Shown here one piece after another: positions 1,159 to 5,580 of a stretch of 5,741 bases of DNA. The translations under genes and the position numbers were made by a program. Location: assembly GCA_905480055.1 (NCBI GenBank), contig CAJQOW010000132.1:1-5741 (forward strand). The letters are read 5' to 3'. Source of the DNA: an uncultured Acidimicrobiia bacterium (GTDB lineage Bacteria; Actinomycetota; Acidimicrobiia; UBA5794). The number at the start of each line of letters is the position of its first letter. Within the stretch, counting starts at the first letter, position 1. The notes under the pieces were generated by a model. That model was given only the letters and a program-made list of their open reading frames with translations. It was not told the origin of the DNA and made no database searches.

Positions 1159-2028
1159 TCACTCTGATGTGTCGGATGCGAGCCATTGAACGAAGTCGGT
1201 CGCCGATTCAGCATCGCCTGCCGGCGCGATGTCCCGGTAGAGCACCAGTGCCGCATCGAGTTCAGCCCTCGACCATGGGCCGCGCATCTGACCGGTTGCA
1301 GCCAGCGCTGCGGCGCACTGTTCAACGGTGAATCGGCCGGCGGTGACCTCACGGCCAACAACGACCCCGGCGACCCGCTTGTCTTCGACCTTCAGGTCAG
1401 TCAGCTCGGCAATGTCGTTGAGATCACGCACGCCTCCAGCGGCGATGACGGGTTCATCAACGAGTGACAGCGCCATCGAGAGTGCTTCGTAGTTTGGGGG
1501 CTCGACAAGCGCGTCACGCCCAACTTCCGTGATCATGAAGGCTGCGGCGCCTCCCGATGACAGGTTGATCAGCGTCTCTTCGAGGTACTCACCTGTTCGC
1601 TCGGTCCAACCATGGATGGAAATCTCGAGATCCGGGTGGACATCGAGGGCCACCACGATGCGGTGCGGGTGAAGGCGGTTCAACTCCCAGAACAACACCT
1701 GGTCGATGATGGCGAGCGTCCCGACGACAACCCTCCACGCGCCCATGTCGAGCACGCGCTGCACATCCACCTGCGACCGGACACCACCACCGACCTGAAC
1801 CGGGATGTCGACGGCCTTGATGATCGATGAAATCAGTTCGCGGTTCTTGTAGTCGCCATAGGCGGCCGCATCGAGGTCCACAATGTGGAGCCTGTCTGCC
1901 CCCTTGTTCACCCAGCCCTTCGCCCTGTTCACCGGGTCGTCATCGAGCGCAATGGCTTCGCGGACGTCGCCGTGCGGTAGGCGGACGGCCCTGCCGTCGA
2001 GAATGTTCACGCGTGCATAGAGATCCAT
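1159..2028 (-). CDS. HisA/PriA-like phosphoribosyl isomerase family protein with Asn at the first catalytic position
   Basis: A 289-residue (beta/alpha)8 barrel of the HisA/HisF/PriA family. Family members isomerise the phosphoribosyl-formimino intermediate (ProFAR) of histidine synthesis; PriA also isomerises PRA for tryptophan. Family marks: L-D-G-R-A-V-R-L (10-17), H-I-V-D-L-D-A-A (48-55), phosphate loop G-G-G-V-R (80-84), V-A-L-D-V (126-130), H-G-W (139-141), I-T-E-V-G-R-D-A (166-173), second phosphate loop A-A-G-G-V (196-200) and V-V-V-G-R-E (222-227). Aligned with M. tuberculosis PriA, the general base Asp11 is Asn8 (codon AAC, 2007-2005) and Arg143 is His139. Asp130 and the general acid Asp175 are kept as Asp129 and Asp172. 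About 40 residues beyond the barrel (from about 248) exceed the usual 240-250. No his or trp gene is adjacent. Fold is certain; classical activity is doubtful, and a changed reaction or non-catalytic role is possible. Confidence 0.85.
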   Translation of the reverse strand: MDLYARVNILDGRAVRLPHGDVREAIALDDDPVNRAKGWVNKGADRLHIVDLDAAAYGDYKNRELISSIIKAVDIPVQVGGGVRSQVDVQRVLDMGAWRVVVGTLAIIDQVLFWELNRLHPHRIVVALDVHPDLEISIHGWTERTGEYLEETLINLSSGGAAAFMITEVGRDALVEPPNYEALSMALSLVDEPVIAAGGVRDLNDIAELTDLKVEDKRVAGVVVGREVTAGRFTVEQCAAALAATGQMRGPWSRAELDAALVLYRDIAPAGDAESATDFVQWLASDTSE

Positions 2029-2034
2029 ACCTTC

Positions 2035-2040
2035 AACCTA
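2035..2040 (-). promoter_or_regulatory. candidate -10 box (TAGGTT) of the HisA-like gene
   Basis: The minus strand reads TAGGTT, then six bases, then the ATG at 2028. TAGGTT fits the TANNNT consensus of actinobacterial -10 elements. Transcription starting 6-7 bases downstream would begin at or next to the start codon, giving a leaderless mRNA. The GAAGG inside the spacer is too close to the ATG to be a good Shine-Dalgarno. No convincing -35 is seen. Confidence 0.35.
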
Positions 2041-2154
2041 CCCGTAGTAGCCCGGCTGTGGAGCACAAACGCATCCGGCCAACAGGCGACACATTGATGG
2101 CGGACTCCGCTCGGCAACAGCTCTGGGACCTTCCAACACCGGCGAGAAAGACCT

Positions 2155-2188
2155 CGGGTGGGGCAGAGCTCGACCTCTACCCCACCCG
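2155..2188. terminator. strong hairpin, possible terminator or RNA structural element
   Basis: CGGGTGGGG (2155-2163) pairs perfectly with CCCCACCCG (2180-2188). Inside it, after one mismatch, AGAG (2165-2168) pairs with CTCT (2175-2178) around a six-base loop. This is the most stable hairpin I see in the window. On the plus strand it is followed by only TTT; on the minus strand by AGGTCTTTCTC. It therefore lacks a true U-tract, and the orientation and role are open. Confidence 0.5.
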
Positions 2189-2266
2189 TTTCGCAGCCCG
2201 GCACCGAACCCCCGAAAGGTGCCTAGCTTCTGCTCGCGCTGCGAGTACAGGGCTGCGGAATGCGTG

Positions 2267-2485
2267 CTGGCGATACCGCTCCCCTGACGATCAACAAGGT
2301 ATCCGGCCAACATGAACGCAAGGTGACCGCAGTTCGACAATGGAGTGATTGTTGCCAAGCCTCACGAGGGGACAGCAGGATGGGGCAAGCCCCAAGGCTC
2401 AAGGCCCATGGCTGGGATCACGAGACGTTCCCGAGTACCAGCTACGAGGTACCAACGAGCGAAGCTCGTCTAGCGGTATCGCCAG
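2267..2485. repeat. 14-bp perfect inverted repeat, arms 2267-2280 and 2472-2485
   Basis: CTGGCGATACCGCT (2267-2280) is the exact reverse complement of AGCGGTATCGCCAG (2472-2485). The right arm lies in the 3' end of the IF-1 gene and covers the first two bases of its stop codon plus the codons for W-R-Y-R. The arms are about 190 bp apart. There are no flanking duplications or transposase, so this is not evidence of an insertion sequence. It may be a relic of local duplication and inversion, or chance. Confidence 0.6.
2455..2469 (-). terminator. short hairpin directly after the IF-1 stop
   Basis: ACGAGC and GCTCGT form a perfect six-bp stem around a three-base loop. The hairpin touches the IF-1 stop codon at 2472-2470. 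Its place, right after the last codon, suggests a 3'-end or terminator role. There is no T-run, as is common in GC-rich actinobacteria. Confidence 0.45.
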
Positions 2486-2694
2486 ACGATGCGGCCCATC
2501 GTGGGGTCGTAAGCGGACACGTCGACCTCGACGGCATCCCCGGGGATGATGCGGATCATGCGACCCTTGCGCATCTTGCCGGACGCACGGGCAGTGACCT
2601 CATGTCCCGTTTCGAGTTTCACCCGAAACGTGGCATTTGGGAGCGTTTCGGTCACAACGCCCTTTGCCCTGAAGTAGTCGTCCTTGCCTGCGAT
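2470..2694 (-). CDS. infA: translation initiation factor IF-1, apparent AUC start codon
   Basis: IF-1 is a single OB-fold protein that binds the 30S A site with IF-2 and IF-3 during initiation. The 74-residue product matches the family throughout: T-L-P-N-A-T-F-R-V (17-25), G-H-E-V (30-33), S-G-K-M-R (38-42), I-R-I-I-P-G-D (47-53), and Y-D-P-T-M-G-R-I-V (62-70). Aligned with E. coli IF-1 (72 aa) it has one extra residue near the N-terminus and one in the 42-46 loop, so 74 is the expected length. There is no ATG. After the in-frame TAG at 2706-2704 the only codons before homology begins are GAG, ACA, CTC and ATC. The ATC (2694-2692) sits where Met1 should be, 6 nt after AGGAG. The first standard codon, GTG at 2655, would leave 61 residues without the first half of strand 1. 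No rpmJ, rpsM or rpsK follows, so this lies outside the usual ribosomal operon and may be a paralogue. Confidence 0.88.
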   Translation of the reverse strand: MAGKDDYFRAKGVVTETLPNATFRVKLETGHEVTARASGKMRKGRMIRIIPGDAVEVDVSAYDPTMGRIVWRYR

Positions 2695-2700
2695 GAGTGT

Positions 2701-2705
2701 CTCCT
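2701..2705 (-). promoter_or_regulatory. Shine-Dalgarno AGGAG that supports an AUC start for IF-1
   Basis: On the minus strand ATAGGAG is followed by ACACTC and then ATC. The six-base gap from AGGAG to ATC is ideal for initiation at that codon. The site also overlaps the upstream in-frame stop TAG (2706-2704), so no further N-terminal extension is possible. Confidence 0.65.
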
Positions 2706-2776
2706 ATCGATTCGGCCGCGTTGCATGGCGCACAACGGCCGGGCTGAGGAGGCAATCGTAGTGAGGGATAGGGCAT

Positions 2777-2793
2777 CTCGGCACTCAGCCGAG
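2777..2793 (-). terminator. hairpin downstream of the stress-protein gene
   Basis: CTCGGC (2777-2782) and GCCGAG (2788-2793) form a perfect six-bp stem with a five-base loop. It begins about 14 bp after the stress-protein stop codon and before the IF-1 leader. It has no T-run, so it is at best a weak or factor-assisted terminator separating the two genes. The remaining leader contains TACGAT (2760-2755), a possible but unsupported -10 for IF-1. Confidence 0.35.
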
Positions 2794-2807
2794 CGAGCAG
2801 ACGCCTG

Positions 2808-3413
2808 TCACACGCCTACGGGCGTCTCGAATCCCTCTGGTTTCACGGTGAGCACAGCTGTGTCGATCAACCCGAGCACATGCTCGGCCGTGTTGCCCAT
2901 GAACACGCCCTTCAGGCCCGTCCGCGCAAGCGTGCCCATCACGACGACACTCGGCTGAACAGTCTCGTTGATTGACGGGACGGCCGAACCTGCGTCGCCC
3001 TTCACAAGGTGGATCTCCGTCGGCACATCGATATCCGGCTGGAAATCCATCAGTCGCTTGAGTCCCATTTCGGCGGCCGCGTGTGTCAGCTCAACCATCT
3101 CATCCACTTCGCGCGAAGGCGGTCGATGCCGACCGCGGCGCAACATGGATTCACCCTCGAGACGCCAGGCGTGGATCACGTGAACGGATCCTCCTTGCAA
3201 TGCTGCGAGTGATGTCGCCAGCTCCAACAGCGTCACATTGAGGGAATCATGCCTCGGTTCGGAGTCGAGGGGCCCAACGGCGACAGCAACGTCACGACTC
3301 AGCCCGTCGCTGCCAGAATCCACCCACACGGGCACCGGGCACTTGCGCAACAGGTGCATCGCCACGGAGGAGCCCCCTGCCCCTCGTCGCCATCTCGTCT
3401 CATCGAACGGCAC
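2808..3413 (-). CDS. universal stress protein, UspE-like: intact second UspA domain with the tail of the first
   Basis: A cytoplasmic universal stress protein resembling the tandem-domain UspE group. Residues 13-31 (G-G-S-S-V-A-M-H-L-L-R-K-C-P-V-P-V-W-V) are the last helix and strand of a first Usp domain. Residues 40-195 are a complete second domain: opening strand D-V-A-V-A-V-G-P, H-V-I-H-A-W (78-83), S-V-V-V-M-G-T (155-161) and G-N-T-A-E-H-V-L (173-180), ending L-T-V-K-P-E-G-F-E-T-P-V. E. coli UspE ends very similarly. The G-x2-G-x9-G-[ST] ATP motif of the nucleotide-binding subgroup is altered (Ala163, Asn174), so ATP binding is doubtful. The GTG at 3413 is the first start-type codon of the open frame but falls inside the first domain: in-frame codons above it still read H-G-H-D-L-V-V up to a TAG at 3452-3450. 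The open frame is therefore probably a remnant of a gene of about 290 residues. Confidence 0.75.
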   Translation of the reverse strand: MPFDETRWRRGAGGSSVAMHLLRKCPVPVWVDSGSDGLSRDVAVAVGPLDSEPRHDSLNVTLLELATSLAALQGGSVHVIHAWRLEGESMLRRGRHRPPSREVDEMVELTHAAAEMGLKRLMDFQPDIDVPTEIHLVKGDAGSAVPSINETVQPSVVVMGTLARTGLKGVFMGNTAEHVLGLIDTAVLTVKPEGFETPVGV

Positions 3414-3665
3414 GACAACCAGATCATGGCCATGTCTGGAGGAGGCGGGCTACCTGTCTCACGAGAAGGTTGGCCGTAGAAATCGATATGAGGTCCATCC
3501 GGACCTCCCCTCCGCCACCCCCTCGAGGATCATCTCGAGATCGGAGCGCTCCTCAGGGTCCTCGCCGACCGCAAGTGAACCAGGCGCTCATTGGTCCCAC
3601 GAGGGATGACGGGCATCACGCGAAGTAGCCAGACCCTCCCCCTCCACGAAACGCGCCGCGCAGAG
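3414..3665 (-). pseudogene. frame-scrambled first UspA domain of the adjacent stress-protein gene
   Basis: This stretch has no intact open frame. Read on the minus strand, recognisable Usp-domain pieces follow one another in changing frames: C-A-A-R-F-V-E-G (3662-3639), R-V-W-L-L-R-V-M-P-V-I-P-R-G (from 3637), L-A-V-G-E-D-P-E-E-R-S-D-L-E-M-I-L-E-G-V (about 3575-3516), M-D-L-I-S-I-S-T-A-N-L-L-V-R-Q-V (from 3498) and H-G-H-D-L-V-V, which joins the intact frame. The switches fall near 3638, 3575, 3507 and 3432. Outer, middle and last pieces share one frame, so the two others are compensated excursions. Stops in the main frame occur at 3590-3588 and 3452-3450. Two switches lie at runs of G, so slippage or sequencing error is possible. 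The first strand and start codon, which should lie toward 3700, are not recognisable. The promoter and start of the divergent permease gene occupy that place. Confidence 0.6.
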
Positions 3666-3696
3666 GTTGTTGCCACACGACCTACCTCTGGGCGGC

Positions 3697-3702
3697 TAGT
3701 TT
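3697..3702 (+). promoter_or_regulatory. candidate -10 box (TAGTTT) of the EamA permease gene
   Basis: TAGTTT fits TANNNT and ends seven bases before the ATG at 3710. No purine-rich Shine-Dalgarno lies in that gap. The geometry predicts transcription starting at the A of the ATG, a leaderless mRNA. No clear -35 is visible. Confidence 0.4.
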
Positions 3703-3709
3703 CGTTCGG

Positions 3710-4591
3710 ATGCGCAATCGGGTCATCATCGCCGTCCTCGCCGCCGCCCTCGGCTGGGGCCTTGCCGGCGTCGGGACGCGAGCCGCGTATGAACTCGGTG
3801 CCAATACGGTCACTGTCCTTGCGATCCGAACGATTGTGGCCTCTGTCGCGCTCGTCGTATGGATGGCCGTTTCACGTATATGGCCGTCCGGGATGGCTTG
3901 GCGACACGGAGCAATAGTGGGGACGCTCCGGATTGGACTGGCACCTCTGCTCTTCATGGCCTCGCTCAACTACATCTCTGCAGGGGTTGAGGGACTCGTC
4001 ATCACCCTGGTGCCTGCAACGACTGCAGTACTGGCTTCGATTCTCATCCACGAGACCGTCTCCCGACGTCAGATACTCGGTCTCGTCATCGGGCTGGCCG
4101 GGACGGCGGTGATCGCAGGCGCAGGGGACTCTGGCCTCGGCAGCGAGGGAAACGTCGCATATGGGTTCGCCCTTTCCGGCCTGGGAGTCATCGTCGGATC
4201 TCTATCGGGGGTGTTGCAGCGCAAGTACGCACCTCTCCACGACACCGTCGAACTGGCCGCACCGATGTTCGTGTCCGGCCTTGCTGTGTCCCTGGTCGCA
4301 GGGTTGTTCATTGGCTTCGACGACGTCAGCGCCTATGAGACAAGCCTGTGGCTGCTGCTCCTCGTACTCGGTTTGGGGTCCACGCTTCTCCCGTTCGGAG
4401 CCACCCTCTATGCGTCAAAGCATGCCTCCGCGACGCTGGTCTCGATCACGGCATACCTCGCCCCCCTCGTTGCCGTGATTGGTGGCGTGCTGATCCTCGG
4501 CGAGGAATTGACACCCATCATCATGCTGGGCGCGGCCCTCGCCGTCATCGGTGTTGGATTGGTCGGCAGACCACGGCGCACCCAGACCTGA
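3710..4591 (+). CDS. EamA/DMT family permease
   Basis: A complete 293-residue inner-membrane permease of the drug/metabolite transporter superfamily with two tandem EamA repeats of five helices each. Approximate helices: 5-24, 33-52, 66-86, 93-112, 121-138, 149-168, 181-202, 212-234, 241-262, 268-286. Typical repeat features are visible. The first repeat has the helix-4 proline P-A-T-T-A-V-L-A (102-109), then a charged turn H-E-T-V-S-R-R-Q (114-121) and G-L-V-I-G-L-A-G-T (124-132). The second has the equivalent A-P-L-V-A-V-I-G-G (251-259), G-E-E-L-T-P (264-269) and G-A-A-L-A-V-I-G-V. The length is normal for the family and the short Arg-rich tail is usual. The substrate cannot be deduced; members move amino acids, nucleosides or other small metabolites. 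It is only distantly similar to the RarD-type permease at the left edge, so the two are not a recent duplication. The oxygenase gene follows 50 bp downstream. Confidence 0.92.
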   Translation: MRNRVIIAVLAAALGWGLAGVGTRAAYELGANTVTVLAIRTIVASVALVVWMAVSRIWPSGMAWRHGAIVGTLRIGLAPLLFMASLNYISAGVEGLVITLVPATTAVLASILIHETVSRRQILGLVIGLAGTAVIAGAGDSGLGSEGNVAYGFALSGLGVIVGSLSGVLQRKYAPLHDTVELAAPMFVSGLAVSLVAGLFIGFDDVSAYETSLWLLLLVLGLGSTLLPFGATLYASKHASATLVSITAYLAPLVAVIGGVLILGEELTPIIMLGAALAVIGVGLVGRPRRTQT

Positions 4592-4629
4592 AGGGTCGCC
4601 GGACGCAACCAGACCGCGCTGTGGCTCCG

Positions 4630-4635
4630 TACAGT
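4630..4635 (+). promoter_or_regulatory. candidate -10 box (TACAGT) of the oxygenase gene
   Basis: TACAGT matches TANNNT and ends six bases before the ATG at 4642, three before the ATG at 4639. The gap contains no Shine-Dalgarno. The spacing favours 4642 as the start on a leaderless transcript, independent of the permease upstream. Confidence 0.4.
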
Positions 4636-4641
4636 TTCATG

Positions 4642-5580
4642 ATGCGAATTCCCGCCATGCTCAACCCACGCACTGCCGTGGCCGATTCAACGGCCGGGCT
4701 CTTCGCGTACGCCGACTATCCCCTCGCACGTTCGCTCGACTATCCCGGAGATCCGGGGCTCTTCGGCCCGGGATCACCTTCGTGGCATGTGCTCGGCGAT
4801 GTCTCATCGTTCGTAGGCGGCATCAGGGCCCTGATGATCCAGGCAGCCCACCCGGAAGTGGTCGCTGGCGTGGCCGATCACTCGACGTACGAGGTTGACC
4901 CGTTGGGACGCCTCTCGCGCACGAGCTCATACGTGACAGCAACCGGATATGGGGCGATGCCCGAGGTCGAGGAGGCACTCGCTGTGGTTCGCCGCGCACA
5001 CGTGCCGGTGAAGGGCGTGTCGCATCGTGGCACCGCGTATTCGGCAACTGGAGGGGACTTCGCCTCCTGGGTTCACAACGTCCTCATCGACTCATTCCCG
5101 ACGGCCCATCAGGTGTTCGGACGGGCGCCCCTGTCAGTCGAGGATGCGGATGCCTTCGTCGCGGAACAGACGAAGCTCGGCGCCATGTTGCGGTCAACGG
5201 ACCTGCCGACGACGCAACATGGACTCTCGCAGTGGATCGCCGAACATCCAGCACTCGAAGCTTCGCCCGGTATGGAGGCGACGATGCGCTTCCTGCGGAA
5301 GCCACCACTCCCGATCGGTGTGAACGTGGGATATCGCGTGTTGTTCCAGGCTGCGGCGGCCACCATTCCCGAACGCCTTCAGCTTCTCCTCGGTGTCAAG
5401 CAGGTTCCCGGTGCCCTGCCCGCGGGAAAGGCAATGATCAACGCACTCCGATGGTCCATGGGATCTTCGCCGTCGTGGTGGCTCGCACTGGAACGAACGG
5501 GCGCACCGATACCACCGGGCGTGGACTTCCGACGTCCACCCCCCGCTGTCGGTGCAGCCGAGCGGTTCGTCAGCACCTAA
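4642..5580 (+). CDS. oxygenase MpaB family protein (DUF2236, rubber-oxygenase-like domain)
   Basis: A 312-residue protein of the MpaB/DUF2236 family, which includes fungal MpaB and the latex-clearing rubber oxygenases. Characterised members bind b-type heme and cleave isoprenoid chains. Family marks in order: L-D-Y-P-G-D-P-G-L-F-G-P-G-S-P-S-W (32-48), M-I-Q-A-A-H-P-E-V-V-A-G-V (65-77), a polar D-H-S-T-Y-E-V-D-P-L-G-R-L (79-91), V-R-R-A-H-V-P-V-K-G (116-125), and S-W-V-H-N-V-L-I-D-S (142-151). R90-L-S-R-T94 reproduces the Arg-x3-Thr spacing of the Lcp active site (Arg164, Thr168). His120 is a candidate heme ligand by position; His70 and His145 are alternatives. These assignments are inferred. 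No signal peptide is evident, so it is probably cytoplasmic. The substrate is unknown; such genes are common and multi-copy in actinobacteria. Starts at 4639 or 4657 are possible. The open frame back to 4348 overlaps the permease and is not protein-like. Confidence 0.85.
   Translation: MRIPAMLNPRTAVADSTAGLFAYADYPLARSLDYPGDPGLFGPGSPSWHVLGDVSSFVGGIRALMIQAAHPEVVAGVADHSTYEVDPLGRLSRTSSYVTATGYGAMPEVEEALAVVRRAHVPVKGVSHRGTAYSATGGDFASWVHNVLIDSFPTAHQVFGRAPLSVEDADAFVAEQTKLGAMLRSTDLPTTQHGLSQWIAEHPALEASPGMEATMRFLRKPPLPIGVNVGYRVLFQAAAATIPERLQLLLGVKQVPGALPAGKAMINALRWSMGSSPSWWLALERTGAPIPPGVDFRRPPPAVGAAERFVST

Follow-up and report, generated by a model that had tools for sequence, protein, structure and literature searches.

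The infA locus and its start region

The window, that is, the whole stretch of 5,741 nucleotides analysed here, comes from a contig of an uncultured Acidimicrobiia bacterium and carries a gene for translation initiation factor IF-1 (infA) on the minus strand, flanked by a universal stress protein gene and a hisA-like gene. The features relevant to this work, in the direction of infA transcription, are the following:

3413-2808, minus strand: universal stress protein gene, upstream of infA
2704..2706, minus strand: in-frame TAG at codon -4, overlapping AGGAG
2701..2705, minus strand: AGGAG, Shine-Dalgarno sequence
2700-2695, minus strand: spacer of 6 nt between AGGAG and ATC
2692..2694, minus strand: ATC, proposed start codon of infA
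2689..2691, minus strand: GCA, codon 2
2653..2655, minus strand: GTG, codon 14, the first standard codon past the ATC
2470..2694, minus strand: infA (IF-1), 74 codons from ATC followed by the stop TAG (2472-2470)
2028-1159, minus strand: hisA-like gene, downstream of infA
Farther out in the window: two EamA transporter genes and an MPAB/Lcp oxygenase gene

The IF-1 protein of the window scored 89.8 bits against TIGR00008 (cut-off 61.15), covering model positions 1-69 of 69, and it also matched PF01176 and the IF-1 chains of solved structures; the alignments displayed for these chains had one gap, located at the MRKGRM loop. Residues 4-74 aligned with residues 2-71 of chain 1ah9, as expected if the protein has one additional residue near the N terminus and another in the MRKGRM loop. 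The initial annotation of this DNA had described a 74-residue IF-1 with two single-residue insertions, in agreement with both the codon count and this alignment; it had further placed the ATC at the position of Met1, 6 nt past AGGAG, with no ATG, GTG, TTG or CTG between the in-frame TAG and the ATC, and the coordinates bear this out, the intervening codons being GAG, ACA and CTC.

Regarding other features of the window, the hisA-like protein (1159-2028, minus strand) reached 183.6 bits, below the HisA NCBIfam cut-off of 228.95, and may be a diverged HisA. The search of the window against Rfam returned zero matches, i.e., no known leader RNA element, and a simple scan of 2300-3000 found no promoter- or terminator-like site. 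A leader RNA element at infA was rejected as a candidate on these two results and on the lack of conservation from -60 to -16 among related sequences.

Start codon conservation within and outside the clade

A scan of genome contigs for IF-1 relatives gave at least 419 confirmed relatives, of which the best 80 were analysed. Seven loci among these 80, all from MAGs and one of them from Acidimicrobiia bacterium UBA5794 (G002), encode IF-1 at 95-97% identity, and ATC stands at the start codon in 7/7. The IF-1 query was also run against 138 genomes from the order to which G002 belongs, with matches in 122 and none in 16; clade-type IF-1 was present in 12 of the 138 genomes, including all seven scan loci, and again the start codon was ATC (12/12). 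The window and these 12 genomes, a clade of Acidimicrobiia-type actinobacteria, constitute the 13-sequence comparison used below.

The initial annotation had suggested aligning the locus across related genomes, where an ATG at this codon would have indicated a sequence error. In the alignment, GGAG, the 6-nt spacer and ATC GCA GG[CT] were common to all 13 sequences; ATG or GTG at this position occurred only in more distant genomes, and sequencing error is excluded because ATC is kept across a clade. Mean pairwise identity among the 13 sequences was 31% from -60 to -16 and 78% from -12 to -1; within the gene, third codon positions reached 51%, and first plus second positions together 97.5%. Codon 2 was fixed at the nucleotide level (GCA in 13/13), unlike the remaining five alanine positions shared by the 13 sequences, whose codons vary; in 116 sampled gene stretches of G002, GCA accounts for 25% of alanine codons. 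Since ATC dominates the isoleucine codons both in the G002 sample (78%) and within clade infA (43 of 53 internal Ile codons), the third base of the ATC is by itself weak evidence, and what counts is that ATG occupies the start codon in none of the 13 sequences. Judging from these patterns, the nucleotides themselves are conserved between -14 and codon 2, in the manner of a start region, and the retention of ATC is more than chance, given the scrambled third positions and upstream DNA.

No standard start is common to all 13 sequences. Upstream of the ATC, codon -4 is TTG in 6/13 and ATG in 1/13, which could suggest that translation truly begins four codons upstream and that the Ile is internal. 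We consider this very unlikely, since codon -4 is TAG in the remaining 6/13, including the window, where it blocks an upstream start; TTG or ATG at this codon was rejected as a general start on that basis. Moreover, at least four changes between TAG and non-TAG are required on the tree, which would hardly be bearable for a start codon in use, and codon -4 overlaps the Shine-Dalgarno sequence. Codons -2 and -1 differ in residue, whereas residues 1-14 are identical in 13/13 despite many silent changes. Extra initiation at -4 might occur in the seven TTG/ATG lineages, above all at the ATG of G001. In this genome (L092), the frame is open for 73 codons upstream of infA, with the ATG at codon -4, and G001 may also make an IF-1 longer by four residues.

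Standard codons are likewise available downstream (in the window, the GTG at 2655), as a downstream start or a decaying gene would allow. However, the first downstream standard codon shifts among the 13 sequences (codon 14 in 8, codon 13 in 2, codon 15 in 1 and codon 25 in 2), and 5/13 have GTT or GTC in place of the GTG at 2655, which was rejected as a general start on this ground. In the initial annotation, a start at this GTG was expected to cost about 13 conserved residues. Furthermore, no second infA was found in the clade draft genomes: TIGR00008 gave one match in each of 7 clade genomes, and the IF-1 query gave one full match in each of the 12, drafts in which a second copy could be missing. 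We regard a downstream start or gene decay as scarcely credible, and it is close to certain, as far as sequence comparison can tell, that infA of the clade is translated from AUC. As for copy number, G102 showed a weak partial second IF-1 match within a long frame, and several non-clade genomes (G010, G025, G028, G106, G115, G121, G126, G127 and others) gave two or three infA-like matches.

Outside the clade, 78 further infA loci of the order were examined, one per genome (18 + 60), so that the 12 clade and 78 other genomes represent 90 of the 122 matched genomes; of the 32 outside this set, G008 and G009 were examined separately and have GTG as infA start. A standard start was present in 78/78, at the position of the clade ATC or no more than 3 codons from it. 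Weak infA starts are found order-wide, with 36 ATG, 23 TTG and 19 GTG among the 78 loci (L104-L121 and L314-L373). In the four nearest outside genomes by score, the standard start lies exactly at the clade ATC codon, being ATG in G101, G069 and G067 and GTG in G105. Similarly, among the best 80 of at least 419 relatives, all 73 non-clade loci have a standard start within 5 codons, a loose test in which chance codons are possible. A Shine-Dalgarno match (at least 4) was found in 57/78 outside loci versus 13/13 in the clade, and thus GGAG by itself is unremarkable. The start codons inside and outside the clade are best explained by one switch to ATC in its common ancestor. A tree built from neighbouring genes and infC separates the clade from four outside genomes with support of 97/93; this tree resolves 7 of its 14 inner branches, includes several short rows and represents the outside genomes mostly by infC. 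In 396 genomes of the phylum, a pattern search for AKKDGA-type infA with an ATH start gave 0 matches; the ATG control matched only 14, so that the zero carries little weight.

The genomic context of infA also differs. Clade infA lies near hisA in 6/7 loci and near the MPAB/Lcp oxygenase gene in 7/7, a neighbourhood that spans 1159-5580 in the window, whereas among 18 non-clade loci (about 3 kb each) the oxygenase gene was found in 0/18 and a distant hisA-like match in 1/18; infA seems to have been relocated at the time of the start-codon change. Clade IF-1 proteins are 95-99% identical to that of the window, and the neighbouring hisA and oxygenase proteins mostly only 60-80%.

Start codons of infC and other genes

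The gene for IF3, infC, was located in 21 of the 22 genomes searched (none in G104), and its 5' end was readable in 20. Its start was ATC in all 11 clade genomes and in 8 of the 9 others, the exception being G093 (L126), with ATT versus ATC in the other 19. From these sequences, infC had a non-standard start before the clade arose, as could be predicted from E. coli (ATT) and Streptomyces (ATC), and infA joined this pre-existing kind of start. The two start regions are alike, with GGAG(N6)ATC GCA GG in infA and GGAG(N8)ATC GC[AG] GA in infC of most clade members. Thus, the parallel with infC drawn in the initial annotation turned out to be stronger than proposed, since infC of these clade genomes itself starts with ATC (11/11).

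That two genes, infA and infC, start with AUC could also mean that AUC is a general start codon in this lineage, owing to an altered initiator tRNA or relaxed ribosomes. We find this highly improbable on three grounds. The initiator tRNA loop was CAU in 21/21 matches, obtained in 16/18 genomes and 11/12 clade genomes (none found in G102), with a pattern that left a free base only at the first anticodon position. The infB gene had a standard start in 8/8 clade loci whose 5' end could be read, one more being cut at a contig edge. Finally, a partial survey set 1.18 Mb of G002 against 1.03 Mb taken from four further genomes of the clade, which amounts to fewer than half the genes of a genome. Of 1042 matched G002 frames, many of them antisense, 210 remained after filtering by identity and overlap; the analysis took in 200 of these, and 147 ortholog pairs were scored. 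Among these 147, 101 had a shared standard start as leading candidate, 20 had no candidate and 26 had alternative or mixed starts; 8 of the 26 had a Shine-Dalgarno match and were inspected by eye (3 credible, 5 false), the remaining 18 staying outside the inspection. The credible non-standard starts were those of infC (ATC), infA (ATC) and miaA (CTG), so that infC and infA were the only credible AUC starts among the 147 pairs. As regards miaA (TIGR00174), CTG follows GGAGG or GGAG at L206:14153-15070 (G002) and at L224 from 2157 (G003), and the gene seems to begin at CTG in these two clade genomes.

Proposed control of infA and known systems

IF3 is the textbook example of feedback through start-codon choice, and we know of no explanation of how IF1 is kept matched to IF3 in cells. 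According to the passages available from PMC5472188, infC starts with AUU in E. coli and with AUC in Streptomyces, and IF3 autoregulates its own translation by start-codon discrimination. AUU, AUC and AUA are described as start codons against which IF3 discriminates, and IF1, together with IF3, as antagonising non-canonical complexes; GTG and TTG lie outside this discriminated class, unlike AUC (PMC4611024, in part). Furthermore, IF3 binds the 30S subunit with higher affinity when IF1 is present, and omission of IF1 leads to more non-canonical initiation (earlier work cited in extracts of PMC5187519). Raising IF3 in a purified system reduced initiation at third-base mismatches, e.g., AUU/CAU, in a survey that, in the portion available, left out AUC/CAU (PMC10158994).

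We propose, at a probability of roughly 60%, that the AUC start subjects infA of the clade to start-codon discrimination by IF3/IF1, with a negative feedback that it shares with infC. On AUC, the initiator tRNA would form two Watson-Crick pairs and be mismatched at the third position, the 30S subunit could still engage thanks to GGAG and the invariant early codons, and IF3, with the help of IF1, would reject the resulting complexes. Low activity of IF1 or IF3 would weaken this rejection and allow more IF1 to be made, plus more IF3 from the AUC of infC; at high activity, both factors would be kept down. With infA added to the known infC feedback loop, both fidelity factors would be set together. 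Because discrimination is chiefly the work of IF3, with IF1 assisting, IF1 may act only slightly on the AUC of its own gene. The further step, that infA and infC form a two-gene initiation-fidelity regulon in which joint IF1/IF3 activity sets both rates via one sensor, is more tentative, and we would give it slightly less than even odds.

The AUC start may, on the other hand, be real and merely throttle output to a fixed low level, without feedback, and such a weak start would give an identical sequence picture. Many non-clade infA genes of the order already carry weak starts (the TTG and GTG counted above), and a slow drift toward weak starts could reach AUC without any sensor. Still, AUC belongs to the class discriminated by IF3/IF1, so some response to these factors would be expected (PMC4611024, in part); infC uses the identical codon; and GGAG, fixed in 13/13, would be odd if low output alone were wanted. 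We therefore hold fixed low output to be unlikely, if well short of far-fetched, and feedback to be the better bet, because the codon is shared with infC and GGAG is fixed.

If the feedback reading is true, a bacterial IF-1 would be autoregulated via its own start codon. In the open-access literature searched, outside which most subscription journals lie, there was no report of such autoregulation, nor of AUC or AUU as an infA start; what is new is that start-codon discrimination, known for infC, would here act on IF-1. The clade, with ATC, GGAG and codon 2 fixed and silent sites scrambled, would constitute a natural experiment on IF1/IF3 coordination. On the practical side, gene finders restricted to ATG, GTG and TTG will truncate or over-extend clade infA.

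Among known systems, infC resembles clade infA in having an AUH start behind a good Shine-Dalgarno sequence in the gene of an initiation fidelity factor (PMC5472188, in part). The differences are that the gene here is infA, that its autoregulation is what we infer, and that its AUC start is recent, outside-clade infA being standard in all loci examined. The sigR gene of Streptomyces also has a non-standard start kept across an actinobacterial group, with standard starts unused; it differs in encoding a sigma factor, in starting with GTC, and in that repression by IF3 has been demonstrated experimentally (same passages of PMC5472188). In E. coli, pcnB is likewise chromosomal and has an AUU start that limits translation (as stated in the available part of PMC9410913), although it does not encode an initiation factor and hence has no self-directed loop. 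The closest case found of an IF-1 gene with a non-AUG start is chloroplast infA, with UUG (Hirose 1999, cited in the portion available of PMC9845219). It differs in that UUG is canonical in bacteria and free of IF3 discrimination. Eukaryotic eIF1, according to work attributed to Ivanov from 2010, is reportedly autoregulated through a poor start context. Like the proposed infA control, this is a fidelity factor tuning its own synthesis by start-site stringency, and it differs in using a scanning system and a poor context instead of a non-AUG codon. The factor with which eIF1 is compared is IF3 (PMC9410913, in part), whereas IF-1 shares PF01176 with eIF1A.
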